DNA from: a bacterium
GTDB taxonomy: Bacteria > Chloroflexota > Dormibacteria > Dormibacterales > Dormibacteraceae
DNA: 57,937 nucleotides
Assembly: GCA_902812395.1 (NCBI GenBank)
Contig: CADDZO010000001.1
Location: forward strand, 1-57,937
Direction: 5' to 3'
Each line of letters begins with the position of its first letter. Positions within the stretch are counted from its first letter, which is position 1. The notes under the pieces were generated by a model, which was given only the letters and a program-made list of their open reading frames with translations, ran no database searches and was not told where the DNA came from. Of this stretch, positions 8,885 to 34,013 are shown piece after piece. The translations under genes and the position numbers were made by a program.

Positions 8885-8910
8885 CGGCGTGAGCGAGGCG
8901 GACTCCACGG

Positions 8911-8916
8911 ATCATA
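8911..8916 (-). promoter_or_regulatory. -10-like element before dnaE
   Basis: TATGAT on the minus strand, 26 bases before the dnaE ATG, matches the sigma70 -10 consensus at five of six positions. No clear -35 hexamer is seen at the usual spacing. Transcription from here would give a leader of about 20 bases without a good Shine-Dalgarno. Confidence 0.3.
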
Positions 8917-9011
8917 GCCGCCGCCGGACCCTCCTCTCCGCCGCTGTTCAGGACGCGTTCATGCCCGGCCCGTAAGATCGAAGCCACTCCACCGTCCGCC
9001 CGTTCTATCCC

Positions 9012-11693
9012 TTGTCTGCTCAGCCGGTGGGTGGTATTTCAGCCTTGCAGCCGATCGCGGAGCCCCCGACCGCGGGCTCATTCGCGCTCCCCAGCCTTCT
9101 CAACGACCTGGACGGGCTGGTCGAGCTACTGCTCGCCTGCCTGGAGCGCGGCGACGTGGTCAATGCCTACCTGATCGCCGCCGGCATGGACCAGGTGGTG
9201 GCGGACGGCCTTCACCCCGACCGTCTGCGGCTGGCCCGCGCGGCCGCCCGGCTGCGCCGTCACCTACCCCGCCCCTGGGCGGCAGTCGCGGCCGCGCCGG
9301 CGGCCGGCGCGGCCTTCCTCTGGCGGCTCCATCTGCTGGCCCCGGGGACGGCGACCGTGGCCCGCTGGCAGGCCGATCTGGGCGACCTGCTGCGTCGGCT
9401 GGCCGGGCGTTGGGTGGGAGGTGACGGCGGCGACGAGCTGGGAACGGCCCGCGACCTAGCTGCCCGGCTGCCTTCGCTGCCGGACCGGATCCGGCTCGAC
9501 CCGCTGCGGTCCCCCAGCTGCTTCCGCAGCTTCGACCAGTCTCCAGAGGACCTGGAGGTGTTGGCCCGGGCCTTCGCCGGCCGTTGGCCGGACCGGGACC
9601 GGCGCTTGGCGGTGGTCGGGATCAGGACCTCCGGCTGCTATCTGGCCCCCCTCCTGGCCGCCATGCTGCGCCGCCTCGGCTACCGTCGGGTGACGACGCT
9701 GACCCTCCGTCCCGGGCAGCGCTGGCTGCCGGGCGAGGCCCGGCTGCTCCGGGGCCTGGCCGACGGGCTGGTCCTGCTCACCGACGATCCGCCCCGGACC
9801 TGGAGCTCCATCGCTCGCGCGGCCCGCCAGCTAACGGCGCTGGGCCTCGCCGCCGAGCAGGTGGTGCTGGTCCAGGCCACCTTCGCCCACCAGGAGCCTC
9901 CGCCCGAGCTCGCCCCTCATCCTTCGGTCCTGCTGCCGGAACCGGGGTGGAATGTGCACCGGCGGCTGGCCCCGGAGGCGGTAGCGGCTGCGCTGGGCCG
10001 GCTGCTTGGCGGGCAGGTCAGATCGGTTCGGCTCCTGGCCCGGGGACCCGCCGGCCGGGGCCACCGCCGCGCCCTCTACGAGGTCGAGACGGTCGCCGGC
10101 GGGCAGCGCCGCAGCCACCGGGTCGAGGCGCGCGGGGTGGGCCTGGGCTACTTCGGGGAGCACGCGCTCGCCCTCGCCCGCCGCCTCGGAGGCCTGGTCC
10201 CGGAGCCGCTGGGCATCGATGCCGGCATCCTGTACGAGGCCTGTCCGGCCAGGCCCGGCCTCCGCGAGCCCCTCTCCGAGGCCGACGTGGGCGCTGTGGT
10301 GGACTACGTCCTGGCCCGGGCCCGGGCCCTTCCCCTCGACCGCGATCCCTCCCCCCACCTCGTCTACCGGGGGATCGACTGGCGCTGGGCGGGTCAGTGG
10401 TTCTCCGGGCTCTTCGGCCGGCTCGCCGAGCCGGGCCGTCTCGTCGCCCACACCGTCGCCCGACGGCTGCTCCGGAACCCACGTCCGGTCCTCACCGACG
10501 GCCGGACCGTCCTCACTGCCTTCACCCGCAACCCGGACGGGGTGGTCAAGCGCGACTACGACCAGGGGGTCTTTGGCAACAGCGACTTCGCCTCCTTCGA
10601 CCCCGTCTCCGATCTCGCCCTGGCCGCCGTCGGCGCCCGCCATCCCGACACCGGCGAGAGGCTGCGCCGGGCCTACGAGCAGCGCTCCGGGATCCGGGTG
10701 GAGCCGGAGCGCTGGCTACTGCACCAGCTGGCGCACGTAGCCGTCTCGCACGCCCGGCTGTCGGCGCCAGAGCGCCTGACCGACCAGCGGCCCGCCCGGC
10801 TGCTCCAGCGCTACTACCGGGAAACTCTGCTGCAACCATCCGAGCCCGGCGGCGGGCCCCTCTGCGCTCTCGACCTCGACGGCGTCCTGGAGTCGAGCCC
10901 GATGGGATTCTCCGCCACCAGCCCGGCCGGAGCCACCGCCCTTCGCTCCCTGCTCCGGCACGGCTACCGGGTGGTGCTGGCCACCGGGCGCTCGCTGGCC
11001 GAGGTCCAGGATCGCTGCTGGGCCTACGGCCTGGCCGGGGGGGTAGCCGAGTACGGGGCCGTCGTCTACCGGGCGCCGACCGGCACCCGGTCGCTGCTCG
11101 ATCCGGAGGCGGCGGAGGAGCTGGAGCGGTTGCGGCGGGCGCTGGCCTCGTGGCCGGGGGTCCACCTCGACTCCCGCCATCGCCACTCCGTCCGGGCCTT
11201 CCGGGTCGAGAACAGCGGCCGCCGAGGCCTGAGGCAGGACCAGCTGGCGGCGGCGCTGCGCTCGGTCAGCCGGATGCAGGTCGTCCGGGGCCATTACCAG
11301 ACCGACTTCGTGCCGGCCGGGGTGAGCAAGGAGCGGGCCCTGGTGGTGCTGGCCCGCGAGCTGGGCGCCGGAGGTGAGCGGCCGTTGGCACTAGCAGTCG
11401 GCGACACCGTCTCCGACCTGGGGATGATCCGGCTAGCCCGCGTCGGCCTGGCCCCGCGCAACGCCGACCGCGGCCTGCGTGAGGCCAGGGTCAAGGTCAC
11501 CTCCCGGCCCGGCCCGGCGGGCCTGGCCCAGGCGGTGGCCGCGGTCATCGGTCACCCGCCCGGCGCCTGCCCGATCTGCCGGCCACCGGTCGCCGACGAG
11601 TCGACGCGGCTGCTTCTCGCCCTTCTCGCGGTCCAGGACCGGGGTGTGACGGGACGCGCGCTGGCCGGGCTCCGGCTGGTCGCAGCTCGATGA
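9012..11693 (+). CDS. Multidomain protein: PRTase-like, kinase-like and HAD phosphatase domains
   Basis: An 893-residue fusion, divergent from dnaE. Residues 1-180 are helical and not recognised. Residues 195-330 look like a type I phosphoribosyltransferase fold: VVGIRTSGCYLAPLL resembles the first strand-loop, and LVLLTDDPPRTWSS sits where the PRPP loop (usually DDV.TTG) would be. Residues 335-600 resemble an aminoglycoside-phosphotransferase-like kinase (GVVKRDYDQ and SFDPVSDLALAAV). Residues 617-850 are a HAD phosphatase, with motif I CALDLDGVLESS (Asp621, Asp623), LATGRSLAEV and LAVGDTVSDLGMI. The tail has a CPIC pair. The start is a TTG without a Shine-Dalgarno; an in-frame GTG 15 bases later is possible. 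Substrates are unknown. PRTase/HAD pairs occur in Ter-type stress clusters, a weak analogy. Confidence 0.6.
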   Translation: MSAQPVGGISALQPIAEPPTAGSFALPSLLNDLDGLVELLLACLERGDVVNAYLIAAGMDQVVADGLHPDRLRLARAAARLRRHLPRPWAAVAAAPAAGAAFLWRLHLLAPGTATVARWQADLGDLLRRLAGRWVGGDGGDELGTARDLAARLPSLPDRIRLDPLRSPSCFRSFDQSPEDLEVLARAFAGRWPDRDRRLAVVGIRTSGCYLAPLLAAMLRRLGYRRVTTLTLRPGQRWLPGEARLLRGLADGLVLLTDDPPRTWSSIARAARQLTALGLAAEQVVLVQATFAHQEPPPELAPHPSVLLPEPGWNVHRRLAPEAVAAALGRLLGGQVRSVRLLARGPAGRGHRRALYEVETVAGGQRRSHRVEARGVGLGYFGEHALALARRLGGLVPEPLGIDAGILYEACPARPGLREPLSEADVGAVVDYVLARARALPLDRDPSPHLVYRGIDWRWAGQWFSGLFGRLAEPGRLVAHTVARRLLRNPRPVLTDGRTVLTAFTRNPDGVVKRDYDQGVFGNSDFASFDPVSDLALAAVGARHPDTGERLRRAYEQRSGIRVEPERWLLHQLAHVAVSHARLSAPERLTDQRPARLLQRYYRETLLQPSEPGGGPLCALDLDGVLESSPMGFSATSPAGATALRSLLRHGYRVVLATGRSLAEVQDRCWAYGLAGGVAEYGAVVYRAPTGTRSLLDPEAAEELERLRRALASWPGVHLDSRHRHSVRAFRVENSGRRGLRQDQLAAALRSVSRMQVVRGHYQTDFVPAGVSKERALVVLARELGAGGERPLALAVGDTVSDLGMIRLARVGLAPRNADRGLREARVKVTSRPGPAGLAQAVAAVIGHPPGACPICRPPVADESTRLLLALLAVQDRGVTGRALAGLRLVAAR

Positions 11694-11728: not shown

Positions 11729-12829
11729 CTACCCGGCAGCCACCTCGCGGACGGAACGGGCCACCAGCTCCACCTCGGCGTCGCTGAGCCCGTGGTAGAC
11801 GGGGATCGACACCATGTCGTCGGCTGCCCGCTCCGCTCGGGGACGGCGCACCTCCCGTTGCCAGGCCTCGTAGGCCGGCTGCCGGTGCACGGGCACGGGG
11901 TAGTAGACACCGGTGCCCACTCCAGCCGACGCCAGGCGCCGACGCAGCCGATCCCGCAGCTCCCGGGCCTGGCCGTCGGCGCCGGCCAGCCGGAGCGTGT
12001 ACTGGTGGTAGACGTGCGTGCTCCCGGGTACCCGCCCCGGCCGCGTCAGCCCGGCGTCGGTGATCGTCTCGTCGTAGTAGGAGGCGATCCGCTGCCGGCG
12101 CTCTGTGATCTCCCCCAGCCGGCGCAGCTGCACCCGCCCGATCGCCGCCTGCAGCTCGGTCATCCGGAAGTTCCAGCCCACTCGATCGTGCAGGTAGGGC
12201 TCCGAGGTGTAGGCCTGGTGGCGCAGGCTTCGGCAGAAGCTGGCCACGGACTCGTCCGCGGTGGTAACCATCCCCCCCTCGCCGGTAGTCAGGTTCTTGG
12301 TGGCATAGAAGGAATAGACGGCCGTCCCCAGCTCCCCCAGGCGGCGACCGCCCACCGTCGCCCCCACCGCCTGGCAGGCGTCCTGGATCAGGGCCAGACC
12401 GTATTCGGCTGCCAACCGCCCAAACGCGGCCATATCGGCGGGGTTGCCGTGCAGGTGGACGGGGACGATGGCCCGGGTGTGGGGACCGATCAGGGCGAGG
12501 ACGCTGTCCGGGTCCAGATTGAGGGTGTTGTCCACGTCGGCGAAGACCGGCCGTGCCCCCGCCTGGACGATGGCGTTGGCGGTGGCGATGAAGGTCAGCG
12601 GGCTGGTGATGACCTCGTCCCCCGGCCCCACCCCGTGGGCCGCCAGCGCCAGGAGTAGAGCGGTGCTGCCGCTGGAGGTGGCGACCGCGAAGCGAGCGCC
12701 GGTGGCGCTCGCAAACTCCGACTCGAAGGCCGCCACCTCGGGGCCCTGGGCAAACTGGCCCGAGCGCATCACGGCCAGCACCGCCGCCTCCTCCTCGGGG
12801 CCGAACGCAGGACGGGAGATCGGGATCAT
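11729..12829 (-). CDS. DegT/DnrJ/EryC1 sugar aminotransferase (WbpE-like)
   Basis: A 366-residue PLP enzyme that would aminate a keto nucleotide-sugar. PLP signatures: TSSGSTALLLAL binds the phosphate, LIQDACQAVGA carries the Asp (150) that contacts the pyridine nitrogen, and YSFYATKNLTTGEGGM carries the Schiff-base Lys178. The start is ATG 12829 (MIPISRPAF), overlapping the stop of the acetyltransferase gene as ATGA and preceded by GGAG. The neighbouring WbpD-like acetyltransferase and the Gfo/Idh dehydrogenase at the far end of the operon suggest a WbpB/E/D-type route to a 3-acetamido (2,3-diacetamido) sugar. The exact sugar is inference. Confidence 0.88.
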   Translation of the reverse strand: MIPISRPAFGPEEEAAVLAVMRSGQFAQGPEVAAFESEFASATGARFAVATSSGSTALLLALAAHGVGPGDEVITSPLTFIATANAIVQAGARPVFADVDNTLNLDPDSVLALIGPHTRAIVPVHLHGNPADMAAFGRLAAEYGLALIQDACQAVGATVGGRRLGELGTAVYSFYATKNLTTGEGGMVTTADESVASFCRSLRHQAYTSEPYLHDRVGWNFRMTELQAAIGRVQLRRLGEITERRQRIASYYDETITDAGLTRPGRVPGSTHVYHQYTLRLAGADGQARELRDRLRRRLASAGVGTGVYYPVPVHRQPAYEAWQREVRRPRAERAADDMVSIPVYHGLSDAEVELVARSVREVAAG

Positions 12830-13401
12830 GGCAGGACTCCTTGGGGCTCGTGCCCGCGGCCGCAGGCCGCGCAGCTCCAATCCGGCAGCAGCCGCTCGCC
12901 ACATTCGCAGACGTAAGCGACGAGCCGGGCCGGGTTGCCGTAGACCAGCCCGTGGTCAGGGACGTCCCGGGTCACCACCGAGCCGGCCCCGACCATGGCG
13001 TGGCGCCCGATCGTGACTCCGGGCAGGATGGTGCAGCCGCCGCCGATGGCTGCCCCCTGCCCCACCGTGACCCCGGATACTGTCCAATCGGCATCCCGCT
13101 TGAGACGCCCGTCGGGGGTGATGGCGCGCGGCCGGCGGTCGTTGAGCAGGATCGAATGAGGGCCGACGAAGACGCCGTCGCCGATCCTGGCACCGGCGAA
13201 CACCGAGACCCGGGTGTGGAGCTTGACCCGGTCGCCGACCACCACGTCGCCCTCCACGTAGGCGCCCTTGCCTAGGATGCAGTCACGTCCGATCCGGGCC
13301 CCGGCCCGGACCTGAGCCTCGTTCCAGATCTGGGTGCCGGAGCCGATCTCGGCCCCGGCGGCCACCTCGGCGGTGGCGTGGACGCAGTAGCTCAGACCCA
13401 T
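12826..13401 (-). CDS. Hexapeptide N-acetyltransferase (WbpD-like) with C-terminal zinc ribbon
   Basis: 191 residues of left-handed beta-helix repeats (IGSGTQIW, IGDGVFVG, IGGGCTI, IGRHAMVGAGSVVTRDVP), closing with GNPARLVAYV. The overall pattern (VHATAEVAAGAEIGSGTQIW) is that of WbpD/WlbB enzymes, which acetylate UDP-3-amino-sugar uronates. Unusually, the C-terminus carries a CxC...CxxC motif (CECGERLL, SCAACG) that looks like a small zinc ribbon. The start at ATG 13401 has AAGGAG six bases upstream and overlaps the end of the giant fusion gene by 10 bases. Coupling to the DegT aminotransferase supports sequential amination and acetylation. Confidence 0.85.
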   Translation of the reverse strand: MGLSYCVHATAEVAAGAEIGSGTQIWNEAQVRAGARIGRDCILGKGAYVEGDVVVGDRVKLHTRVSVFAGARIGDGVFVGPHSILLNDRRPRAITPDGRLKRDADWTVSGVTVGQGAAIGGGCTILPGVTIGRHAMVGAGSVVTRDVPDHGLVYGNPARLVAYVCECGERLLPDWSCAACGRGHEPQGVLP

Positions 13402-16400
13402 GCCAGCTCCTTGCGGGCGATCTCCGACGGCCCGCGGATCGAGCACTCGCGCCGCCAGGACAGGGCCGGAGACGGGCCCGGGCCCACCACCCGGATCACG
13501 GTCGTGCCCATGGGTGGGACCGTCACCTCCACCTCGGCGGCGTCGACGCGCCAGCGACCGTCGACCTCGAGCACGCACCACGCGGGCCGGTGTGGGCGCC
13601 GAACCAGGTAGCGACGGGGAGCCAGCTCGGGATTGTGCAGGCAGGCCTCGTCGGCGGTCATGAGCACCTCCCAGCCCTCGGCCACGCGCCGGTGCAGATA
13701 GGCGTGACGGGCGATCTCGTCCAGGCTGGTCCAGGTGATGCGGGCGGCCCGGTTGAGCGCCTCCGCCCGCTCCACGAAGGGACCGAAGTCCCGCCCCAGC
13801 CGCCTCAGGTGGGCGAAGGTCAGCGCCGGCCGGCCCAGCACCAGGTCGAGCAGGTAACCCTGGTCAGCCAGGCCCCGGCGCCAGAGCAGCGGGTAGCCCT
13901 GCCAGGCCAGATCGGCGGGGCGCAGCCCCAAATCCCAGTCCTCGGGCACGGGCGCCTCCAGCGGGTACTTGTCGCCGTAGTTGGCGCTGGCGATGAAGCC
14001 AAGCCGGCGGAGCTCGGGCAGGATGGCGGCCGACCCGGTCCCGTAGGGGAAGACCATCACCCGGTCCAGGGTCAGCCCGAAGCGGGCGGTGGCGGCCTGA
14101 CCGTACTCGACCGCGCGCGCCAGCGCCTCCCGCTGCAGGTCGAGCGGTCGCGGTCGGAAGCGAGTCCGGCGGCCCTCGGTCAGGTAGAACTCGTAGCCGA
14201 CATGCTCACAGCCGTGGTAGCAGGCTGAGATCAGGTGGGGATGCCGGCGCAGGCGTTCCACCACCGCCGGTTCGGCCAGCCCTAGCTCCCTGGGCACGGT
14301 GGCGATGGTGACGTGGAAGCGGCTGTCCCGCGCCTGGCTCAGGAGGATGTCGATGGGCAGGCCGAGCGCCCCCCGGCGAAGGGCGGGATCGTCGATGGAA
14401 AAGTTGCCGAGGCGCGCCGGCGGGTGCCAGGCCCGCTCCCCGTAGAGCTCACGCAGCAGCAGCATCGGCACCAGGGCCACCCCAGCCTCGTCCACTCCCT
14501 CCCAGAAGGCCCCGGCCAGGGCGCAGCGGAGCGCGGTCGGCAGCGTGCTCATCACCAGCTGGCCCCGGCCTACCGGCTGCCGGGCGACGACCGGGGCCAG
14601 CCGCTGGCCGTCGCCACCGAACACCAGCGCCCGCGAGCGGGCGCCCGGGCCGAGGGCGGAGGCGCCGATCCCGGTCACGATCCGGGTTCCGGCCAGCTCC
14701 TGGCCGAACTCGGCCTGGTCTGGGGGGATGATCAGGTAGCGGGCCGGGGCTGGCTCGCCGATCGCCGGCGGCGCCGCCTCCAGGCGCCGGCAGAGCTCGC
14801 GCAGAGCAGGTTCGTCTTCACGCCGGAGGCCGTCCAAGTACAGGGTGCCACCGCGGCGCAGGAAGGCGGCCAGGGCGGCGCCGTCGTCGGGCAGCCCCAG
14901 CATCACCTCGGCGCGAGCACAGAGCAGGGACCAGTCCTGGCGCAGCGCCTGTGCCACCACCGCCGCCGCCCCCTGCCGGTCCACCTCTACCACCGGCAGC
15001 CCGTAGAAGCGGGCAGCGGTTCGCAGGGCCGAGCCCTTGGGGCCGTCGACCAAGGCGACCACGTCGCTGGTCGGATTGGTCAGGGCCGGCATCGCCCGCC
15101 AGTCGGCCAACCGCACCACCGGGACGTCGAGGTGGGGCCGGGGACGGTAGCCAGGGTTGGCGCCGAACAGGATTTGGCGGGCCAGGCCCCGGCGGTGGGC
15201 CAGGCTACGGCGCAGGCAACCGGCCCAGACCGCGAACGCCGGCGGAGCGGGCAGATCGCGATCCAGGCCCAGCTCCTCGAGGTGGGAGAGGAGGCGGTCG
15301 GCGATGGCGGTCCAGGCGTAGGGTCGGGCCAGCTGACGGGTGTGGACCGCCTCTCGGGGCAGGGCCACGGCCAGGCGGCGCAGCTGCTCCGGCGTATCTA
15401 CCAGCGCCAGCCCCGGGTGCGGACCCAGCAGCTCGGGGAGGGCGCCGAAGCGGGGGCTGACCACGGGCAGATTGGTGGCCAGCGCCTCCAGGACCGACAG
15501 CGGCAGCGCCACTGCGTCAGAGAGGTCGGTCGGGGTGAAGGCGTAGCAGTCGGCCAGGCGGTAGATCTGCTCGATGTGGGGCTGGTAGCCCTCGATCACG
15601 CGCGCGCCGCCCGCCAGCAGCCGCGCCAGCAGCTCCTCCGACTCCGGCCCTCGCTGCCCGGAGACCACGATCAGCACGGTGGTCCGGGGGCGACGGGTTA
15701 GGGGGAGCAGGGTCTCCAGGTTCCGCCCCCGCTTCAGGTGCCCGACGTGGAGCACGACCAGGTCGCCCTCGGGTACGCGCCATCTGCGGCGTAGCGCCTC
15801 CTTCTCGCCTGGCTCCGGCGGCCGGAAACGCTCGGGGTCGACGCCGCCCGAGATCCAGTCGGCGTTGAAGCCGGCGGCACGCGCCGCCCGGCACTCCCTG
15901 ACGGTGGGGAGCAGCAGCAGGTCCGGGGCCAGCCAGCGCAGCAACCGGCCCCCCAGGGGCCGACCGGCCTGCAGCCCGACCATGGCCACGGGCGAACCAG
16001 AGACCAGCTTCAGCACCCGGGACCGAACCAGCGCGGCCGTCGTCAACGAGCTGCGGGAGAGGTAGACCACCACCCCCTCCCGGGCCTCGGGCCGGCGGGC
16101 GGCACGGAGCACCTCCCAGAGCCGGCCGGCGGCGCGCAGGGGGGCGGCCACCTGCCAGGGATGGGCGCGGGTCACGTGCAGCACCAGCGGCCACCGCCGG
16201 CCGAGCACCGTCTCCAGGCTGCGGGCGAACTTGGTGTAGCCCTCGTCCGGAATGAGCGTGATCTCCTCGGCGATCAGGAACAGGGGCCGCCGGCCAACCC
16301 GCTGGGGTCGTCGACGATCGAGGCCGTGGGGGAACCGAACCTCGCCCAGCATCTCCCGCTCGGAGAGCTGGCGCACCCGGGGGAGGGGACCGGCGAAGGC

Positions 16401-18989
16401 CCAGGCAGTCACCGCCCCCGCCACCACCAGCTGGGCGGTGGCCCCGGCGCCGAAGGCAACCGCCGCCCCCACGATCCCGTGGTGGGGGATGAGCCAGAGC
16501 CCGGAGCCGAGCGTGGCCGCAGCCGCAGCCGCGGCACTGATGGTCTGCACCACCGGGTAGCCCAGGCCCAGCCAGAGGCTGTCCAGCACCGCCTTCAGCC
16601 CGTAGATGGCCATGCCCACGGTCAGCACCGTCAACGCTGCCGCCGATCCGGCGTAGCGACCTCCGAACACATCGGTGGTGAGCGGCCCCGCCACCGCCAG
16701 CATCAGCACCGCCATGGGCACGATGACGACCGCGGTGAAGGCCAGGACGCGGACCAGGAACCCGCGCACCTCTCGCTCCGCCAGCCGGGCCACTCGGGGC
16801 GCGAATACGAACGAGATCGCGGTCGGGACCAGGGCGAAGGCGTTGGCGATGGCCTTGGCGGCGGCGTACTTGCCGGTCTGAGTCGAGTTCAGCAGGTGCT
16901 CGACCAGGATCATGTCGCCGCCGTACCAGAGGTTCCAGAAGACCGCCTGGAGCAGGACCGGGCGGGCGAAGCCGCCGATCGCGGTCAACCGGCGCCAGCT
17001 CAGCGCCGAGGGCCGCCAGCGGAGGCCCAGCGGCCGGATCGGGAGCAGGATGGCCAGGGCAAACACCGAGGAGAGCCCGTAGGCAACCAGGAACAGCACC
17101 GGGCTGACCCGGCCGGCGGCGGCCAGAGCCAGCACCGCCACCAGCTGGACCACGTTGGCCAGCACGTAGAAGACGGACTGGATGGTGTAGCGACCCAGCC
17201 CTCGCTGGATCTCGCGATAGGTTTCGAGCGCGGTCACCCCGAGCAGGTTGCCGAGCACCCCAGCCAGCATCCAACCGGCCAGACCCAGCGGCGCCGCCAC
17301 CGCCACCGCCACGGCGGCGCTGAAGGCCAGCACCACCCCCACCACCGCCAGCCAGTTGGTGTAGTAGGTCTCCTGCTCCAGCCGGTTGCCCTGGTGGCGG
17401 GACAAGAAGCGGGAGAGGCCAACCGGGGCGGTGGTCAACAGCACCGAGAGCACCCCGGCCACCGCCAGGGCGTAGGTGAGCTGCCCGTAGCCAGCCGGCT
17501 GCAGAAGCCGGCCCGCCACCACCTGGAAGAGAAAGCCGATCAGGCGGGCAGCGCCGAAGCCGAGCAGGACCGCGAACGAGGCCCGGATCAGGGGGCCGTC
17601 CGGGGCCAGCCGCCGGAGAGCGCGCCAGGCCCGGGCGGCCAGCCCCGGGACCGAGGGCGGCCGCAGCTCGACGAAGGCGACCGGGCCCGATTGTTGGGCC
17701 AGCATCAGGCCCGACATCACGCCGACCAGCATCCAGAACTCCTGGCGGACACCGGTCATGGTCAGGTACTCGGAGGTGGTGTCCAGGATCAGGGCGCTGA
17801 CCACCGCGCCGGCGCAGGTGGCCCCGATCGCCCGGCGGGTGGGGTCGGGGCTGTGCCGGGCGGACCACCCGGAGAGGGCGATGGTCGCCATGACCAGCAG
17901 GAACAGCCCCAGGACCGGGAACCCGCCCACGAACATCTGCCAGAGATAGTCGTTGTCGATGAAGCTCTGGTAGGGAACCGGGACCGGCGGCGGGATCACG
18001 GTTCCGGTCCCGAAGGGCAGCCCGTGCTGGAGCAGGGCGGGGATGAACCACCCTTGCCAGAAGACCACCCGGGTGTTGAGCGTCTCGGGCAGGATCCCGT
18101 TCGCCCCCGCCGTCTGGGACTGGAGACGAGCGGCCAGGTGGGGCCAGAAGATCACTCCTGCCGCCACCGCCGCCGGGAGCGCGTACCAGACCTCGCGCCA
18201 GGGCACGCGGCGGCATACCCAGAGCGCCATCACCGTCCCGAAGGGCAGGGCCAGGACCGGCGCGTAGGTGTCGGCGGCCAGCATGCCCAGCAGGTTGATC
18301 CCCATCACCCCCCGCAGCCACCAGCGGTTGTAGCCCTCATCGCGGGTGGTGAGCAGGGAGAGCGCGAGAAGGAAGTTGAGCAGGCCAAAGGCCCCCACCG
18401 CGGAGTAGAAGCCGAGCAGCGAGGCGGGGCGGTAGGTGGTGTCCCAGCTGGGCAAGGGCGCGGTCGGGTAGAAGGCCCCGACCAGGTTGCGCACCCCGGG
18501 GGTGTTGACCAGTTCCAGGCCCGCCACCGCCGCCACCGGGATGCTGGCCAGCATGGTGGCGTTGAAGAAGAGCCGGCGCTCGGAGCGGGTGAACGGGGTC
18601 CGGGAGAGAATCACGTAGACCAGCAGATCCTGGAGCGGCGAGGCCACCGTCATCCAGCCGGTCAGGTCCAGGCTCTGGCCTGTGAGCAGGTTGTACCCGG
18701 TCGGGATCAAGACCGAGAAGACGCAGAAGGCGACCACGGCCAGGTCGAGCCAGTTGAAAGGAAGCCGCTCGCGGCGGGTCAGCTCGGAGAGGAAGAACCC
18801 CACCGCCACCACCAGCAACAGCGCCTCGTTCACCCGCAGCAAGGGGACGTAGGCACCCCGGGGCATGCCCGCGGTCAGGGGGATGAGCAAGGCCAGGGCG
18901 GCGCAGCCCAGGGCCGGCCGCCGGATGCTGGTGCCGAGCAGGACCAGGGCGAACGCGCCGGCGACGACCAAGAGGATCGCGTGGCTCAT
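13392..18989 (-). CDS. Giant fusion: Wzy-like polymerase, Wzx-like flippase, GT4 and deacetylase-like domains
   Basis: 1865 residues in one uninterrupted frame. Residues 1-435 are a polytopic O-antigen polymerase/ligase-like domain with a long periplasmic loop (LNTRVVFWQGWFIPALLQHG). Residues 465-870 are a MATE/Wzx-type flippase with about 12 segments (AGRLLQPAGYGQLTYALAV, ALETYREIQRGLGRYTIQ). Residues 900-1240 are a GT4 glycosyltransferase with VVLHVGHLKRGRN and the C-terminal DAVALPLSVLEAL motif. Residues 1280-1520 are of unknown alpha/beta type. Residues 1527-1700 look like a CE4 deacetylase (NFSIDDP, YHGCEHVGYEF, MVFPYGTGS), then a beta-rich tail. No Shine-Dalgarno plus start pair breaks the junctions. 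One chain would join polymerisation, export and modification. It overlaps the acetyltransferase gene downstream. Confidence 0.8.
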   Translation of the reverse strand: MSHAILLVVAGAFALVLLGTSIRRPALGCAALALLIPLTAGMPRGAYVPLLRVNEALLLVVAVGFFLSELTRRERLPFNWLDLAVVAFCVFSVLIPTGYNLLTGQSLDLTGWMTVASPLQDLLVYVILSRTPFTRSERRLFFNATMLASIPVAAVAGLELVNTPGVRNLVGAFYPTAPLPSWDTTYRPASLLGFYSAVGAFGLLNFLLALSLLTTRDEGYNRWWLRGVMGINLLGMLAADTYAPVLALPFGTVMALWVCRRVPWREVWYALPAAVAAGVIFWPHLAARLQSQTAGANGILPETLNTRVVFWQGWFIPALLQHGLPFGTGTVIPPPVPVPYQSFIDNDYLWQMFVGGFPVLGLFLLVMATIALSGWSARHSPDPTRRAIGATCAGAVVSALILDTTSEYLTMTGVRQEFWMLVGVMSGLMLAQQSGPVAFVELRPPSVPGLAARAWRALRRLAPDGPLIRASFAVLLGFGAARLIGFLFQVVAGRLLQPAGYGQLTYALAVAGVLSVLLTTAPVGLSRFLSRHQGNRLEQETYYTNWLAVVGVVLAFSAAVAVAVAAPLGLAGWMLAGVLGNLLGVTALETYREIQRGLGRYTIQSVFYVLANVVQLVAVLALAAAGRVSPVLFLVAYGLSSVFALAILLPIRPLGLRWRPSALSWRRLTAIGGFARPVLLQAVFWNLWYGGDMILVEHLLNSTQTGKYAAAKAIANAFALVPTAISFVFAPRVARLAEREVRGFLVRVLAFTAVVIVPMAVLMLAVAGPLTTDVFGGRYAGSAAALTVLTVGMAIYGLKAVLDSLWLGLGYPVVQTISAAAAAAATLGSGLWLIPHHGIVGAAVAFGAGATAQLVVAGAVTAWAFAGPLPRVRQLSEREMLGEVRFPHGLDRRRPQRVGRRPLFLIAEEITLIPDEGYTKFARSLETVLGRRWPLVLHVTRAHPWQVAAPLRAAGRLWEVLRAARRPEAREGVVVYLSRSSLTTAALVRSRVLKLVSGSPVAMVGLQAGRPLGGRLLRWLAPDLLLLPTVRECRAARAAGFNADWISGGVDPERFRPPEPGEKEALRRRWRVPEGDLVVLHVGHLKRGRNLETLLPLTRRPRTTVLIVVSGQRGPESEELLARLLAGGARVIEGYQPHIEQIYRLADCYAFTPTDLSDAVALPLSVLEALATNLPVVSPRFGALPELLGPHPGLALVDTPEQLRRLAVALPREAVHTRQLARPYAWTAIADRLLSHLEELGLDRDLPAPPAFAVWAGCLRRSLAHRRGLARQILFGANPGYRPRPHLDVPVVRLADWRAMPALTNPTSDVVALVDGPKGSALRTAARFYGLPVVEVDRQGAAAVVAQALRQDWSLLCARAEVMLGLPDDGAALAAFLRRGGTLYLDGLRREDEPALRELCRRLEAAPPAIGEPAPARYLIIPPDQAEFGQELAGTRIVTGIGASALGPGARSRALVFGGDGQRLAPVVARQPVGRGQLVMSTLPTALRCALAGAFWEGVDEAGVALVPMLLLRELYGERAWHPPARLGNFSIDDPALRRGALGLPIDILLSQARDSRFHVTIATVPRELGLAEPAVVERLRRHPHLISACYHGCEHVGYEFYLTEGRRTRFRPRPLDLQREALARAVEYGQAATARFGLTLDRVMVFPYGTGSAAILPELRRLGFIASANYGDKYPLEAPVPEDWDLGLRPADLAWQGYPLLWRRGLADQGYLLDLVLGRPALTFAHLRRLGRDFGPFVERAEALNRAARITWTSLDEIARHAYLHRRVAEGWEVLMTADEACLHNPELAPRRYLVRRPHRPAWCVLEVDGRWRVDAAEVEVTVPPMGTTVIRVVGPGPSPALSWRRECSIRGPSEIARKELAWV

Positions 18990-18992
18990 CGG

Positions 18993-21146
18993 CTAGGAGG
19001 CGGCGGTCCCCAGGACTGGCTCGGGGACGGCCAGCCCCAGGGCTTCCAGGTAGCGCTCCCGGACCCGCTCCCAGGTCAGCTCGGCAACCATCTCCGATGC
19101 CCGCTCCGCCTGCCGGCGCGCCCGCTCGGGGTCGGAGAGCAGCTCATGGATCCGGTCCGCCAGATCCCGGGCATCCCCCGCCCGGGCATAGCTCACCCCC
19201 TCCGGGAAGTAGACCTCGATCGCGGGCACGCGGGAGCAGACCACCGGTACCCCCAGCTGCACCGCCTCCAGCAGCTTGGTCGGCAGCAAGAACCGCCCAT
19301 ACCCGTCGCCCAGCACCGGCACCAGACAGAGCGTGGCCTGCCGGACCCGCGCCAGCCCCTCCGCCCAAGGCAGCCAGCCGGTGAACTCGACCCGGTCCTC
19401 CAGGCCCAGCTCCTGGGCCAGGGCCTCCAGGGCTGGCCGCTGCTCGCCGTCACCCATGACCGTCAACCGCAGATCCGGCTGGGCCGGAGCCAGCAGCCCC
19501 AGGGCCTGGATCGCCCGATCGATGCCATACCGGCGAACCAGGGTGCCGTGGGTGATCAGCAGCGGCGAGCCCGGCGGCCGTCGCCGGGGTGGCACCGGCA
19601 TCGGATAGCTGTTGACGACGATCGACATCCGTTCCGCCGGCACCCCCCGCTCCCGCAGGGCCTCGAAGCAGCAGCGGCTGACCACCACCACGCGGTCCGC
19701 CCAGCCCGTGGCCAGCCGCTCCACCGCGCCGGCCAGGGCCAGCATCGGCCGGCGCAGCCGCCCGGCCACCCGCGCCGCCACCATCTCCGGGGTGAGCTCG
19801 TAGAGGGTGAGCACACAGCGGGCGCCCCGCCAGCGGGGGACCAGGGCGGCCCAGACCAGATGGTCGGGCAGGTTGTCCACCTGGACCACGGCGTACCGGT
19901 GGCGCAGCCCCAGCCAGCTCGCCAGCGCCAGTGCCCAGGCGAAGAAGAGGGCGTACTCGAGCGGGTATCGGATCAGCCGGCGGCGGTGCCGGATGGGCAC
20001 CCGGTGCACGTGGAGTCGGGGATGGACGGGCGGATCGCCCTCGTGTTCCTGCAGTCGGAGGCAGATCAGGTCCACCTCATAGCCCCGCTCCACCAGCTCG
20101 ACCACGTCGCGGCGGACGACGGGCATGCCTGGGAAGGAGTGCTGGGTGATCCGCAGCACCCGGGCCGGGGGGTGCGCCAGCATGGCCTGGAGCCGATCCA
20201 GGGCGACGGCCCGCTGACGCCGGAGCCGCGCGGCCAGCTCGCGGCTGCGCGCCGCCAGCTCCTGCTCGGCGGCCACCGCCCGTCGAACCGCCGCCGCCAT
20301 CTCCGCCGGCCGGTTGGCCGCGTAGAGGACCTCTTGGCCGAAGCGCGCGCGCAGCCCGGGTAGGTCGGAGAGGACCAGGGGGCGGCCCATGCCCGCGGCC
20401 TCGAAGGCGGCCCGGTTCATGATGTGGGGATCGGTGGAAAAGACCGCCACCGCCCGGGCGGCCAGCATCTCGCCCAGGAACCTCTCGTAGGGGAGGAAGC
20501 CGGTGAAGACCGCGTTGGCCGGGGCCGCCTCCCGGACCGGTTCCGGGACCCGCTCCACGTCGCCGGTGAGCCGGAACTCGAGCTCCGGCGCCATGGCCGC
20601 CGCCGCCACCGTCTCCGCCACCGGCTCGTTACCGTCGAGGCTGCCGGCAACCAGCACTACCGGCCGCTCCGAGGCGGCGGCGACGCCGGCCTGGGTGACG
20701 TCGGGCACGTCGTCAGGGACCAGAAGGCCGGGGGCGCCCCACGTCCGGACCAGTTCCTCGGCCTCCTCGGTGTGGACCAGGGCCGCTCGGGCACGACGAA
20801 GCAGGAACCGATGCAGGGGTCGAGCCCAGCGCCAACGGGCGGCGTGGAAGGCGTCGGTGTGACAGTCCACCACCAATGCCGCCTGGTGCCGTCGGCACCA
20901 CAGCCAGGCCACCAGCGGGGCCAGCACCGGTGGGGTCACCACCAGCACCTGCTCCGGTCGCTCCGATCTCAGCAGCCGCCACGTCTCCAGCGCACAGGCC
21001 ACGTAGCGGAGAGGCAGAGGCCGGGGCGGGCCGGGCACGAACGCCACCCTCCCCCCCAGGACGCCGGCCAGGGCCTGGGTCCGCGGCTGGAAGCGGGCCC
21101 AGGCCAGCGCCAGCGCCAGAGCGCCCTCAGACGCCCGGGGCTCCAC
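18993..21146 (-). CDS. Tandem glycosyltransferase (two GT4 domains in one chain)
   Basis: 717 residues holding two GT-B glycosyltransferases. The first half (about 1-325) has LVVDCHTDAFHA, VLVAGSLDGNEP and the late motif AAFEAAGMGRPLVLSD. The second half (about 330-700) starts afresh with RVLRITQHSFPGMPVVRRD and contains LLITHGTLVRRYGID, LTVMGDGEQRPALEAL and LLPTKLLEAVQLGVPVVCS, a textbook GT4 C-terminal domain. Two successive sugar additions by one polypeptide are likely. The GTG start at 21146 lies 20 bases inside the Wzz-like gene, so the two are coupled. The next gene begins 3 bases after its stop. Sugar specificities cannot be read from sequence. Confidence 0.85.
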   Translation of the reverse strand: MEPRASEGALALALAWARFQPRTQALAGVLGGRVAFVPGPPRPLPLRYVACALETWRLLRSERPEQVLVVTPPVLAPLVAWLWCRRHQAALVVDCHTDAFHAARWRWARPLHRFLLRRARAALVHTEEAEELVRTWGAPGLLVPDDVPDVTQAGVAAASERPVVLVAGSLDGNEPVAETVAAAAMAPELEFRLTGDVERVPEPVREAAPANAVFTGFLPYERFLGEMLAARAVAVFSTDPHIMNRAAFEAAGMGRPLVLSDLPGLRARFGQEVLYAANRPAEMAAAVRRAVAAEQELAARSRELAARLRRQRAVALDRLQAMLAHPPARVLRITQHSFPGMPVVRRDVVELVERGYEVDLICLRLQEHEGDPPVHPRLHVHRVPIRHRRRLIRYPLEYALFFAWALALASWLGLRHRYAVVQVDNLPDHLVWAALVPRWRGARCVLTLYELTPEMVAARVAGRLRRPMLALAGAVERLATGWADRVVVVSRCCFEALRERGVPAERMSIVVNSYPMPVPPRRRPPGSPLLITHGTLVRRYGIDRAIQALGLLAPAQPDLRLTVMGDGEQRPALEALAQELGLEDRVEFTGWLPWAEGLARVRQATLCLVPVLGDGYGRFLLPTKLLEAVQLGVPVVCSRVPAIEVYFPEGVSYARAGDARDLADRIHELLSDPERARRQAERASEMVAELTWERVRERYLEALGLAVPEPVLGTAAS

Positions 21147-22569
21147 CCGCCACCGTCTCCGCCGCCGGTTCGGCTGTCTGCGGTTCCGCCGGGGCTGGTG
21201 CCCGCTCGGGTGGGCGGGACGAGAGCAGGACCGCGGCCGCAGGCTCTACGCCCACGTGCCGGAGCAGTTCGCTGGTCCGGCGGGCGTCACTGAAGCGGGT
21301 GCGGCCCTCGGTGGCGACCACCACCGCCACCCCCGACGGCGGGCGCAGCCAGGCAGAGCCAGGATCCTCCATCGGCGGCAGGGCGCTGCGGATGGCCAGA
21401 TCGAAACCGTCCGGGACAGTGTACCCGTTGAGGTTGGACGGGCTCTCGACCAGCACCTCGGAGGCGGCCCCGACCGGGATCCGCCGGGAAGGAGCGGAGA
21501 CCGCCGGGACCACTAGGACCCGGTGGTGGAGCCTGGCCACCGACTGGGCCAGCTCGATCGCCACCTCGTCCACCCGCTCCCCGGGGGAGGCGGCGACCAG
21601 CAGGATGGCGCGGGAGCCGGGCTGGCTGAGCAGGCTGGCCTGGGTCAGAAAGCCGTAGGAGCCGGCGCTCCAGCGCCGGTGGCGGCCGCCCAGGTTCAGG
21701 ACCAGGCGGCAGCCGGTGGCCTGGGCCAGATCCTCGGCGTCGTCGACCACGTCCCGGAAGCGCTCCCCGACCAGGGCCAGAAGGAAGCCCAGCACCAGGC
21801 CCACCGCGCCCCCCACCAGCCCGTAGCGCTTGGTGCTGGGATCGACGGGCGATGGGGGCGGGGTGGCCGGCTGGTAGACGCTCAGGGCAGCGTCCTGCTG
21901 CCTCTGCTGGACCTCCAGCGTCTGGAGGCTGGTGTAGGTGGAGGTGTATTGGTTCTGAAGGGGGGTGAGCTGGGCCAGGAGCGGGGCCTGACGGGTGGCG
22001 GCCTCGGTCGCGGGCAGGCCGCTGGTGGCGGCGATCGCGGCCTGGATCTGCGCGATCTGCTGGTTCAGGCTGGCCAGCTGCTGCTGGAGGAGCGCGCGCT
22101 GGGGGGCGAGGGTCTGGGCCACCAGCTGCTGGTTGCGCTGGATCACCGCCGCGGCTACCTGGTTGGCCAGCTGGCTGGCCGCCTGGGGGGTGGCGGCGGT
22201 GGCGTTGATGCCGATCAGTCCGGTGGTCTTGAGGGGAGCGGCGGAGATCCGCTTGGCCAGAGCAGCGAGCCCGGCCTGGTCGCAGACCAGGTGCTGCTCC
22301 CGGCAGACCTGCTCCAGCACGGGCTGGCTGGTGGCCATGCTGTCGTAGCGGTCGGCTAGGTACTGGTCGGCCTGGACCGCCACGTCGATGCCCTGGCTGA
22401 GCACGGTCGACTCGTCCACCGACATCACCGCGGTACCCTGATAGGTAGGGTGGCGGACCTTGGCCGCCCCGACCGCCCCCACCAGGCCGATCAGGGCCAT
22501 GCCCCAGATCACCCAGTGCAGGTGGCGCAACGCCCGGCCGACAGTCTTGAGGGGGGTTGCCGTTCTCAC
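21127..22569 (-). CDS. Wzz-like chain-length protein with degenerate BY-kinase-like domain
   Basis: 480 residues. There is a membrane segment near residues 18-36 (WVIWGMALIGLVGAVGA), then a periplasmic region with a Gln-rich coiled coil (QRALLQQQLASLNQQIAQIQ). A second membrane segment follows (YGLVGGAVGLVLGFLLALVG), then a cytoplasmic domain. This is the layout of polysaccharide co-polymerases fused to a tyrosine kinase. The kinase part has lost Walker A: where GKS/T is expected there is AASPGERVDEVAIELAQSVA, and no Tyr-rich tail is present. It is probably a regulatory pseudo-kinase or structural protein controlling chain length for cluster A. The GTG start follows the sugar-transferase stop by one base. 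Confidence 0.8.
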   Translation of the reverse strand: MRTATPLKTVGRALRHLHWVIWGMALIGLVGAVGAAKVRHPTYQGTAVMSVDESTVLSQGIDVAVQADQYLADRYDSMATSQPVLEQVCREQHLVCDQAGLAALAKRISAAPLKTTGLIGINATAATPQAASQLANQVAAAVIQRNQQLVAQTLAPQRALLQQQLASLNQQIAQIQAAIAATSGLPATEAATRQAPLLAQLTPLQNQYTSTYTSLQTLEVQQRQQDAALSVYQPATPPPSPVDPSTKRYGLVGGAVGLVLGFLLALVGERFRDVVDDAEDLAQATGCRLVLNLGGRHRRWSAGSYGFLTQASLLSQPGSRAILLVAASPGERVDEVAIELAQSVARLHHRVLVVPAVSAPSRRIPVGAASEVLVESPSNLNGYTVPDGFDLAIRSALPPMEDPGSAWLRPPSGVAVVVATEGRTRFSDARRTSELLRHVGVEPAAAVLLSSRPPERAPAPAEPQTAEPAAETVAGGAPGV

Positions 22570-22570
22570 C

Positions 22571-23230
22571 TCATCCCCCCCGGAGCGCCGACGCCACCAG
22601 CGCCGGCAAGGTCATGGCCAGGATCTTGAGATCGAGCCACAGCGATGCCTCCCTCACATAGCGGAGATCGAGTTGCATCATCTCGGCCGCGGACAGCCGC
22701 TCGCGCGGGCTCACCTGCCAGAGACCGGTGATGCCCGGCCGCGCCCGCAGCCGGCCTAGGTAGGCCGGCTGATAGTGCGCTAGCTCGTACGGTATGGCCG
22801 GCCGGGGCCCGACCAGGCTCATCTCGCCGCGCACGACGTTGAAGAGCTGAGGCAACTCGTCGAGGTTGCTGCGCCGCAACAGCCGGCCCACTCGGGTGAT
22901 CCGAGGGTCGGTGAGCGACTTGTAGCGGTCACTTCGGGCACGGCCGGCGAACCAGTCCGCCGCCGCCTCCCGGTGCAGCGATTCATCGCAGTCGACCCGC
23001 ATCGACCGCAGCTTCCACATCCGAAAGCGGGCACCCCCCCAGCCCACGCGCTCCTGCCGGAAGAAGGGCGAACCTGGGCTCTCCAGGACCACCAGCATGG
23101 CCAGCAGCACGATCGCGGGCAGGGCCAGGAGGAGGAGCATCAGCCCCAGGCCCAGATCCAGCGGGCGCTTCCACCACCACCACTCCAGGTCCGCGTCCTG
23201 GTCGGACACGAACGCCGCCGGACCGGTCAA
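22571..23230 (-). CDS. Undecaprenyl-phosphate sugar-phosphate transferase (WcaJ/RfbP type)
   Basis: About 219 residues; this enzyme starts glycan assembly by loading a sugar-1-phosphate on the lipid carrier. One N-terminal membrane hairpin (LGLGLMLLLLALPAIVLLAM) precedes the cytoplasmic catalytic part with [42 protein letters not shown] and PGITGLWQVSPRERLS, all family hallmarks. It is the short form without a CoA-binding-like N-domain. The start is placed at TTG 23230 because AGGAGGG lies six bases upstream; an in-frame TTG at 23320 would add 30 residues. It is probably the initiating enzyme for cluster A. Confidence 0.9.
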   Translation of the reverse strand: MTGPAAFVSDQDADLEWWWWKRPLDLGLGLMLLLLALPAIVLLAMLVVLESPGSPFFRQERVGWGGARFRMWKLRSMRVDCDESLHREAAADWFAGRARSDRYKSLTDPRITRVGRLLRRSNLDELPQLFNVVRGEMSLVGPRPAIPYELAHYQPAYLGRLRARPGITGLWQVSPRERLSAAEMMQLDLRYVREASLWLDLKILAMTLPALVASALRGG

Positions 23231-23389
23231 CAAGGTCCCTCCTGTGAGCGCTGATGCGATCTCTGCTCGAACGACGCCACCGATCTCAACTTCCACTCGC
23301 CCCTCGTTCCAAACGGACAAGGGCTCTTAACGGCACGCAAATGCCGCGCCGCAGCCCAAGCCCAGGCTAGGGAGGCCTCGATATGGGCT

Positions 23390-24355
23390 TCAATGGGATG
23401 TGCCCGAGCCCTCGTGGGCGTTCGTCCCGCCACCGGCGGACTGGCGTCCGAGGCTTCGGAACCAGTCCACCTCCCGCGCCAGCCCCTCCCGCAGCGGGTG
23501 GGGCCGGAAGCCGAGCTCCGCCGACGCCCGGGAGGTGTCACAGAGCGGGTTGGGGCGCTGCCGGAGGAAGGGACAAGGCGCGATCGCCGATCCCAGGCCG
23601 CAGAGCTCGGCCACCATCCGAGCTGCCTCCGCCACCGGCAGTGGCGACCCGCCCAGGTTGAACGCCCCCCTGGCCCGACGCTCCACCGCCGTCCGGATCG
23701 TGGCTACGACGTCGGCCACGTCGACCGGTGCGAAGGGCTGCGACCCGTCCCCTTCCACGCGCGGCGGCCGGCCTAAGAGGGCATCCCGGATGAAGTTGGG
23801 GATGGCCCGCCGGATCGGCTCTCCGGGACCGAAGACGGTGGTCAGGCGCAGGACCGTCGCCGGCCGCCGGGTGTCGGCCGACCAGGCTCGGACCAGCTCC
23901 TCCTGCCAGAGCTTGGCCAGGGCGTAGGCGTCAGTGGGGGCCAGCGGCCCGTCCTCGCGGTTCAGGCCCGTGGTCGGATAGACCCGGGCGGTGCTGGTGA
24001 AGACCACCTGACCGACGCCCGCCTCGGCCGCGGCCCGCAGCAGGCGGGCGGTGGGACGAACATTGCCAGCCAGCTCGGCCCCCAGCCGGCCCAGGGCAGA
24101 GCCGCCCCGGGGCGCCCGGTAGCCGAGATGGCAGAGGGCATCGCAGCCAGCCAGAGCCCGGCGGGATGCCGCCGCCGAGGCCAGGGCCGTCGGCTCCCAC
24201 CGGGCCCGCCCGGACTCCACCAGCGCCACCGCCTCCCAGCGCTTCAGCGGCGGCGGCCCCAGGAGGACCAGCTGCCAGTCCGCGGCCGCCAGGTCCGCGG
24301 CCAGGTGGGAGCCGATGAAGCCGCCGGCACCGGTGAGCGCGGCACGCCGGGCCAC
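23390..24355 (-). CDS. NAD-dependent epimerase/dehydratase (extended SDR)
   Basis: 321 residues with the extended-SDR NAD site TGAGGFIGSHLA at the N-terminus and a TSTARVYPTTG segment supplying the catalytic Ser/Thr. The YALAK motif gives Tyr and Lys, and LRLTTVFGPGEP is the usual substrate-binding strand. It would act on a nucleotide sugar (4-epimerisation, reduction or dehydration); the reaction is not determined. It starts at a GTG five bases after the previous gene. Its last residues are Gly/Ser/His-rich and probably disordered. A 159-base gap then leads to the sugar transferase and contains the possible longer start of that gene. Confidence 0.85.
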   Translation of the reverse strand: MARRAALTGAGGFIGSHLAADLAAADWQLVLLGPPPLKRWEAVALVESGRARWEPTALASAAASRRALAGCDALCHLGYRAPRGGSALGRLGAELAGNVRPTARLLRAAAEAGVGQVVFTSTARVYPTTGLNREDGPLAPTDAYALAKLWQEELVRAWSADTRRPATVLRLTTVFGPGEPIRRAIPNFIRDALLGRPPRVEGDGSQPFAPVDVADVVATIRTAVERRARGAFNLGGSPLPVAEAARMVAELCGLGSAIAPCPFLRQRPNPLCDTSRASAELGFRPHPLREGLAREVDWFRSLGRQSAGGGTNAHEGSGTSH

Positions 24356-24360
24356 GCCGC

Positions 24361-25362
24361 CTAGACCGGCACTGCGTCCTGCCGCCAGTTGACGGTGTCC
24401 TCGCCCTCCAGCCAGGAGGTGGGGTCGCCCGGCTGAGCCCGCAACCAGTCCAGGTACCGGATCAGGCCCGCCTCGATCCCGACCTCGGCCTGGAAGCCGA
24501 GCAGCCGCCGGGCCCGGCCCACGTCCGCCCAGTGGCGGGACACGTCCCCGGGCCGGGCGGCAAGGCGATGGATCGGGGACGAGCTCCCGGCCAGCTGCCG
24601 GATTAGCTCTGCCACCCGGAGGACGCTGACCGGCTCACCGCGGGCGATGTTCACGCAGTCCCCGACCAGACGGTCGCAGCCGGCTGCCAGCACCACCCCC
24701 CGGGCGATGTCGCCAACCCAGGTGAAATCGCGGCACTGGCTGCCGTCGCCGAAGACCGGTAGCGGGGCGCCGATCAGGGCGCGCACCGCCAGGCGCGGGA
24801 TCAGCTCCCCGCTCGGGCCACGGAAGTGGGAGCGGGGCCCGTAGGCGTTGAAAGGGCGAACGGCCACCACCGGCACCCCGTAGGTGCGGTGGAAGGCGAG
24901 CGCCATCATCTCCCCCGCCAGCTTGCTGGCCGCGTAGGGGGTGGTGGGGCGCAAGGGATGGTTCTCGTCCATGGCCTGCTCTCCGCCGCTCCCGTAGACC
25001 TCGGAGGAGGACACGTAAACTAGGCGCTCCAGCCGATCGGCACCGAGCGCAGCCAGCAGCAGGTTCAGGGTCCCGGCATCGTTGACGCGGTGAGATCGGA
25101 GCGGGTCTCCGAGCGAGACGCGGAGGCAGACCACGGCCAGGTGGAAGACGACCTCCGCCTCCGCCACCAGCGGGGCCACGCACTCGAGGTCGGCGACGTC
25201 GCCACGGACCAGTCTGATCCCGGTGGGCAGGTTCTCCGGCCGGCCCACCGAGAGATCGTCCAGCACCGTGACCCGATTGGTGGGGGCGAGCGCCTCGACC
25301 AGGTGGCTGCCGATGAACCCGGCCCCGCCGGTGACGAGGATCCGTTTGCCCTCCAGCTTCAT
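24361..25362 (-). CDS. NAD-dependent nucleotide-sugar epimerase/dehydratase (extended SDR)
   Basis: 333 residues. The NAD-binding motif is VTGGAGFIGSHLVEAL (about 10-25), the active-site segment VYVSSSEVYGSG, and the YAASK motif supplies Tyr/Lys. VRPFNAYGPRSHFRG and GDGSQCRDFTWVGDIARG follow, as in UDP-glucose 4-epimerases, UDP-glucuronate decarboxylases and dTDP-glucose dehydratases. Which of these it is cannot be decided. The start is ATG 25362, overlapping the deacetylase stop as ATGA; extended versions of the frame fall inside the neighbouring gene. It provides an activated sugar for cluster A. Confidence 0.88.
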   Translation of the reverse strand: MKLEGKRILVTGGAGFIGSHLVEALAPTNRVTVLDDLSVGRPENLPTGIRLVRGDVADLECVAPLVAEAEVVFHLAVVCLRVSLGDPLRSHRVNDAGTLNLLLAALGADRLERLVYVSSSEVYGSGGEQAMDENHPLRPTTPYAASKLAGEMMALAFHRTYGVPVVAVRPFNAYGPRSHFRGPSGELIPRLAVRALIGAPLPVFGDGSQCRDFTWVGDIARGVVLAAGCDRLVGDCVNIARGEPVSVLRVAELIRQLAGSSSPIHRLAARPGDVSRHWADVGRARRLLGFQAEVGIEAGLIRYLDWLRAQPGDPTSWLEGEDTVNWRQDAVPV

Positions 25363-27712: not shown

Positions 27713-27721
27713 GGCCCGAGG

Positions 27722-28924: not shown

Positions 28925-28937
28925 CAAGCCCGAAAGG

Positions 28938-30074: not shown

Positions 30075-30432
30075 GGACGGTTGAACCTCCGGCGACGTAT
30101 TGTCGGCGGCCCCGTCGCGGACCAGCAATGGGCGGCGCCCGCCGAGGGGGCACCGAAGTCCCACCAGACCACGGGAGCCAAGCCCCGAGACCACCGGGCC
30201 AGCATCCGGCTGTCCGGGTTGGAGATCGCCGCCGGCGCGCGCCGCTGCACGATCACCTGACTGCTGCTCAGGGAGACCTGGTCGGGCTCGCTATTGGGAG
30301 CACCTCGTCGAACGTGAGGTCCGGCGCTGGCGTCCGCCACGGGCGCGCTGTTCGGCTGGATCGGGAAGATCCCGATCGCGGTCGGACGGGGTCGGTAACT
30401 GTTGCCGTCCGAGCATATGAAAATACGCAGCG
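30075..30432. other. Divergent upstream region of glycan cluster A
   Basis: 358 bases without a convincing gene. It must hold the minus-strand promoter for the long cluster A operon. Short open frames here lack family features. Near the right end an AT-rich patch (GAGCATATGAAAATAC, 30411-30426) stands out from the GC-rich surroundings and may belong to the left end of the IS607 remnant. Confidence 0.4.
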
Positions 30433-33513: not shown

Positions 33514-33563
33514 GGTCGGCCCGGTCTCACAGCCCGAGGCGGTTTTCCACCCGTTCTGAACCT

Positions 33564-33877: not shown

Positions 33878-34013
33878 GGCGCTCGGGACATGAAGGCATC
33901 CGCGACCGGGACCACGGCGCACCGGTCGCGGCCCAGACACCCACCCAGGGCGGACGCTGGCCCATGGAGTGTGCGGTCAGGGGCCGCGTACGGTGATGCC
34001 ACCCTGCGAGCCC

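Follow-up and report, generated by a model that had tools for sequence, protein, structure and literature searches.

A predicted phosphoribosyltransferase, kinase-fold, and HAD phosphatase fusion protein encoded beside a bacterial polysaccharide assembly locus

The window (the whole stretch of DNA analysed here, 57,937 nucleotides) encodes at 9012–11693 on the forward strand a protein of 893 residues, in which the first-pass annotation had recognized a phosphoribosyltransferase (PRTase), an aminoglycoside phosphotransferase (APH)-like kinase, and a HAD phosphatase that could make, phosphorylate, and dephosphorylate a ribosylated metabolite. What reaction does such a chain carry out, and in which pathway? 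A literature search returned nothing on the fused PRTase/APH-like/HAD architecture. The reading we prefer, at a probability of about 0.58, is that of a cytoplasmic ribosyltransferase which draws on PRPP and serves the assembly of surface polysaccharide.

Gene, domain architecture, and family

The open reading frame is uninterrupted from the TTG start as called, shows the GC3-rich codon pattern of real genes, and is confirmed as a genuine gene with these coordinates. Because residues 1–22 have low model confidence and little conservation, the conserved part beginning at about residue 23, the true start may lie after the called TTG. The gene is present as a single copy in the host genome, and its product comprises the following features.

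9012..11693, +, whole ORF (893 aa): N-terminal helical, PRTase, APH-like, HAD-IIB, and CxxC parts
9078..9491, +, N-terminal helical domain, residues 23–160 (AlphaFold2 helices 33–161; alignment; family-conserved)
9498..10010, +, type I phosphoribosyltransferase, residues ~163–333 (profile and Foldseek to PyrR/UPRT/HGPRT; Pfam Pribosyltran in relatives)
9618..9650, +, PPi-loop-like motif GxRTSGSYLAP, residues 203–213 (aligns with the PyrR VGIKTRGIYLA-type motif)
9783..9809, +, PRPP loop DDPPRTWSS, residues 258–266 (family form DDPPx[T/S]Gx[S/A/T])
10014..10832, +, APH/fructosamine-kinase-fold domain, residues ~335–607 (Foldseek; non-canonical active site)
10860..11549, +, HAD-IIB (Cof-type) phosphatase, residues 617–846 (Pfam, NCBIfam, Foldseek; invariant motif residues)
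11550..11579, +, GHxPGxCxxC tail motif, residues 847–856 (alignment)

The AlphaFold2 model of the whole protein, built from an alignment with 28 homologues, has a mean pLDDT of 89.4 and a pTM of 0.89. Together with Foldseek it bears out the proposed presence of three folds in one chain, the PRTase and kinase folds both being recovered by structure prediction, and the CPIC tail noted in the first pass is real and conserved as GHxPGxCxxC. The boundaries proposed there (1–180 and 190–330) had to be shifted, with the PRTase at ~163–333 and an additional helical domain at residues 23–160.

Assignment of the C-terminal part to the HAD-IIB (Cof-type) phosphatases is strongly supported by Pfam Hydrolase_3 (E = 8.5e-11), by NCBIfam Cof/HAD-IIB matches with scores under the NCBIfam curated cut-offs, and by the Foldseek match of residues 617–846 in the full model to the HAD-IIB structure 1wr8 (3.7e-9). 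No Pfam PRTase family matched the window protein alone; Pribosyltran matched 6 of 12 relatives, with a best value of 1.6e-5. The family profile searched against PDB sequences retrieved PyrR, UPRT, and OPRT chains at E-values of 0.002–0.02, which are weak alone and stand in a list where the unrelated repeat protein 7uek has a lower E-value. The model of residues 158–612 matched PyrR 1w30 (3.9e-4) and HGPRT in Foldseek. Fold, profile, DD-type PRPP loop, and PPi loop make a strong case for a type I phosphoribosyltransferase fold. For the middle domain (~335–607), Foldseek gave fructosamine-3-kinase 3f7w (E = 6.6e-7; TM 0.59 by target length), followed by YtaA (2q83) and choline kinase, and maltokinase 4u94 when the full model was used. 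Its profile had no match to PDB sequences, and hhalign found none to the intact APHs of neighbouring genes; since sequence-profile support is thus lacking, the kinase call is one of fold only, and the APH/fructosamine-kinase fold is predicted with good confidence.

Family members have ~900–1000 residues and occur in Chloroflexota/Dormibacterota and Actinomycetota. Relatives were found within the same class, in the Dormibacteria genomes searched; outside the class and within the phylum, the matches listed include two full-length relatives (L050 and L051). Those in the named collection have the same Chloroflexota/Dormibacterota and Actinomycetota distribution and include Pseudonocardia, with the cultured P. 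asaccharolytica DSM 44247 (L082), Kitasatospora phosalacinea, and Rhodococcus. The nearest homologue (52%) lies on JAJPKS010000417.1 (L074). About 40 homologous loci keep the domain order, far above chance. Distribution is patchy, with a PRTase+APH-like match in 11 of 400 phylum genomes; in the class of Kitasatospora, a fast first pass that may miss some found it in 1 of 395 genomes, namely the centre genome. In the tree, the Chloroflexota and Actinomycetota rows are not cleanly apart and many forks are unresolved, and we make no claim of transfer. One locus (L039, G090:C131) carries two diverged gene copies, 7338–10052 (+) and 14248–17073 (−), less than 5 kb apart and in opposite orientation.

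Conservation of the three active sites

Residues were counted in the 28-row family alignment, some columns of which are covered by fewer rows. The PPi-loop-like motif (Gly203, Arg205, Thr206, Ser207, Gly208, Tyr210, and Pro213) and the PRPP loop (Asp258, Asp259, Pro260, and Pro261) are conserved in 28/28 rows at every position. The PRPP loop, read as TDDPPRT, had been called atypical; the window does have Trp for Gly at position 264, but relatives have DDPPx[T/S]G, with Gly in 25 of the 28 rows and Trp in three, the window among these. As judged from the alignment, the Trp264 loop is a lineage variation of the near-canonical DDxx[T/S]G and only mildly atypical. The HAD motif residues Asp621 and Asp623 (in a first motif DLDG), Gly659/Arg660, Lys773, and Asp798 are invariant wherever covered (23–26 rows). 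In the tail, Cys853 is found in 22/22 rows and Cys856 in 22/23.

The kinase-like domain has fixed residues of its own, namely the invariant Arg349, Asp496 (28/28), Lys513 (27/28), Asp530 (27/27), and Asp534 (26/27). By spacing from the catalytic-loop strand, and not from model coordinates, Asp496 would take the His place of HGD and Lys513 would seemingly replace the metal-binding (DFG-equivalent) Asp of APHs. At position 498, that of the catalytic Asp, most rows have Arg, Ala, or Lys, the Asn position is variable, and the β3 Lys is not conserved, so that the canonical set of active APHs and fructosamine-3-kinases (HGD(x)4–5N, DFG-like Asp, and β3 Lys) is not kept, whereas the genuine APHs encoded in neighbouring genes retain Lys, HGD, Asn, and Asp. 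Because the canonical catalytic Asp and Asn are absent and the domain keeps its own residues, we take it as a probable pseudokinase or atypical enzyme. The making and dephosphorylating steps envisaged in the first-pass annotation fit the intact PRTase and HAD sites, but the phosphorylating step does not fit a domain in which the canonical kinase residues are not conserved.

A pseudokinase-like middle domain and a patchy distribution would also suit a regulatory or defence protein, in which the PRTase, kinase, and HAD folds serve sensing or phage conflict. The invariance of the PRTase and HAD catalytic residues and the metabolic gene context speak against such a role, and we hold it to be very improbable. 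PADLOC gave no match to known anti-phage defence families, and a known defence family was rejected on this ground.

Polysaccharide context and the proposed reaction

The gene adjoins a locus with Wzz, Wzy_C, MOP flippase, initiating transferase, GT4, and DegT functions, arranged as follows.

11729..12904, −, DegT/DnrJ aminotransferase (PF01041, E = 3.5e-116)
12826..13581, −, hexapeptide acyltransferase-like protein (PF00132; the ORF call overlaps its neighbours)
13392..18989, −, 1865-aa ORF with weak Wzy_C, MOP flippase, and GT4 regions
18993..30194, −, polysaccharide locus: GT4, Wzz, initiating Bac_transf, two epimerases, FAD oxidoreductase, and GFO/IDH/MocA
18993..30194, −, in the same stretch, two weakly assigned ORFs, deacetylase-like and cellulase-like

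The joining of Wzy_C-like, MOP flippase, and GT4 parts in the single polypeptide of 13392–18989 (−) is in itself an unusual fusion of assembly steps. Separately, 31780–40068 (+) encodes two carbamoyltransferases and then a 1441-aa ORF with carbamoyl-phosphate synthase small and large chain domains, which suggests carbamoylated sugars or metabolites. A search of the host genome found neither TerD nor the Ter-linked PRTase_2; with both missing and polysaccharide assembly genes as neighbours, the proposed link to Ter stress systems was abandoned and a Ter-linked PRTase/HAD system rejected.

Homologues of the gene have recurrent neighbours, including GT2, polysaccharide deacetylase, MOP flippases fused to APH, and GH16/26/44. 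Commonest of these is the MOP flippase, found at 21 of 38 non-duplicate loci but in none of 12 control stretches, and any flippase, glycosyltransferase, initiating, or Wzy-like marker was found in 30 of the 38 and 2 of the 12; these counts are partly circular, the neighbour HMMs being small and built from the same neighbours, and the controls are other stretches of related genomes, mostly one genome. About 8 of the 38 loci, several of them short, show no polysaccharide marker in the sequence covered. Flippase fusions occur as well: in L008 (391–4641, +; the same gene as L037 8175–12395) the homologue is a 1417-aa ORF that reads on in frame through a domain of the polysaccharide flippase type, and in L076 (11413–14268), L079 (2233–4683), L087 (10583–12883), and L091 (2640–4952) a MOP-type flippase fused to an intact APH kinase lies beside the PRTase gene. 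In L082 flippase and APH kinase are separate adjacent genes.

Since two intact active sites, those of the PRTase and the HAD domain, lie in a polysaccharide assembly locus, we infer a two-step route from PRPP to ribofuranose. The type I PRTase would move ribofuranose-5-phosphate from PRPP, as the donor, onto an acceptor, either the repeat unit of a glycan or the lipid that carries it, in an O-ribosylation; the fused HAD-IIB domain would then strip the 5′-phosphate to leave ribofuranose. The APH-fold domain would most likely bind or position the acceptor, or regulate the PRTase and HAD domains, instead of phosphorylating. Classical DD-type PRTases make mostly N-ribosides or nucleotides; given these habits, a base or another small compound could serve as acceptor.

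The frequent flippases also invite a three-component route, in which polyprenyl phosphate receives ribose-5-phosphate from the PRTase and the product is dephosphorylated by the HAD domain. The MOP flippase, in which fusion with an intact APH kinase is frequent, would then export the polyprenyl-P-ribose for use by a membrane glycosyltransferase on the outside. A recurring multi-pass membrane neighbour without a Pfam family, encoded in L076 at 14275–16128, could be the GT-C or Wzy required, and the Citrobacter system uses a synthase+PRP, a MATE flippase, and a GT-C (PMC11127046). However, charging is known from an enzyme of the UbiA type, which is a membrane protein, whereas the PRTase here is predicted to be soluble, a flippase with Wzy could be a plain Wzx/Wzy export set, and the membrane neighbour, looked for as a GT-C, had no PDB sequence match. 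We regard this route as unlikely.

Homologues of the PRTase+APH-like form bear both on the preferred reading and on a product outside polysaccharides. Plasmid NZ_CP109408.1 of Kitasatospora sp. NBC_01519 (L105) encodes a shorter PRTase+APH-like protein without HAD (5.7e-40), directly after which abuts a gene for a different HAD (HAD_2), an arrangement that looks like a separate recruitment of the dephosphorylating step and favours the preferred reading; methyltransferase and AdoHcyase-like genes also adjoin. This megaplasmid has three identically scoring matches, at ~176 kb, ~1002 kb, and ~1540 kb; the neighbours named here are those of one copy. In L106, where the PRTase region matches and the APH-like part was recognized by eye, the homologue adjoins glycosyltransferases and a B12 radical-SAM gene, and the scanned neighbours include no HAD, a point against the preferred reading. 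The methyltransferase and AdoHcyase-like genes, the classical DD PRPP loop in a PyrR/HGPRT-like fold, and the well-predicted APH fold would agree with a ribosylated small molecule or nucleoside as the product, with real APH-like phosphorylation and no polysaccharide. Most loci nevertheless have a polysaccharide context, the search of the host genome found no Ter genes, and the HGD Asp, the Asn, and the β3 Lys are not conserved, with Lys513 probably in place of the DFG-equivalent Asp; a product of this kind appears to us improbable.

Comparison with known ribosylation systems

Transfer of Ribf-5-P to glycans followed by 5′-dephosphorylation is known from gPRT with the HAD phosphatase PRP and from CriT with CrpP in Bcs3 (PMC11127046, PMC10299916), and dual-domain gPRT-PRP ribofuranosyltransferases occur in Klebsiella O antigens and Thermobacillus (PMC11127046). 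The 893-residue protein resembles gPRT-PRP in joining a PRPP-type transferase and a HAD phosphatase in one polypeptide in polysaccharide loci, but has extra helical and APH-like domains, and 7shg was found neither among the PDB-sequence profile matches nor in the top 50 Foldseek rows. In fold, gPRT has moved away from the classical PRTases, to which the PyrR/HGPRT-like PRTase here is close. Bcs3 of the Haemophilus influenzae type b capsule likewise combines a PRTase-like transferase and a HAD in one multi-enzyme polymerase (PMC10299916). CriT, however, is without the vicinal DD motif and has D680 and E818 instead, and in CrpP the DxD motif is reduced to its first Asp, while the present protein has the classical DDPP and DLDG, is without a GT-B/CroT or SH3b domain, and gave no match to 8a0c by the family profile. 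The UbiA-type polyprenyl phosphoribose synthases with PRP (Citrobacter ORF15 and mycobacterial Rv3806c/Rv3807c) share the PRPP donor, 5′-dephosphorylation for polysaccharide pentofuranose, and a nearby flippase, but the synthase has a membrane fold in place of a predicted soluble type I PRTase.

BtrL/BtrP of butirosin biosynthesis, compared by description only, transfer from PRPP to an aminosugar and then use a phosphatase; the likeness is this sequence of steps, whereas the genes are separate, belong to an antibiotic pathway, and are without an APH-like domain. Our literature search found nothing on BtrL/BtrP. The Ter-linked PRTase/HAD/ATP-grasp sets also bring PRTase and HAD folds together, but as separate genes with Ter genes.

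To our knowledge, few enzyme routes, namely gPRT, CriT, and UbiA-type, bring ribofuranose into bacterial glycans. By analogy, we infer that the 893-residue protein would act like the ribofuranosyltransferases without recognisable homology to gPRT-PRP or CriT-CrpP. Tentatively, and at somewhat short of even odds, it may represent a third class of glycan ribosyltransferases that use PRPP, one of independent evolutionary origin, in which a classical DD-type PRTase is used for O-ribosylation and a former kinase domain (R349, D496, K513, D530, and D534) is repurposed as an acceptor-binding or new catalytic module, in one machine with the HAD phosphatase and sometimes the flippase. If so, a classical nucleotide-type PRTase would provide a new route for ribofuranose into bacterial glycans, ribose would be predicted in the coats of soil Chloroflexota and Actinomycetota that have had little study, and the kinase-shaped domain with its different invariant residues would offer a testable case of APH-fold repurposing inside a glycan machine.
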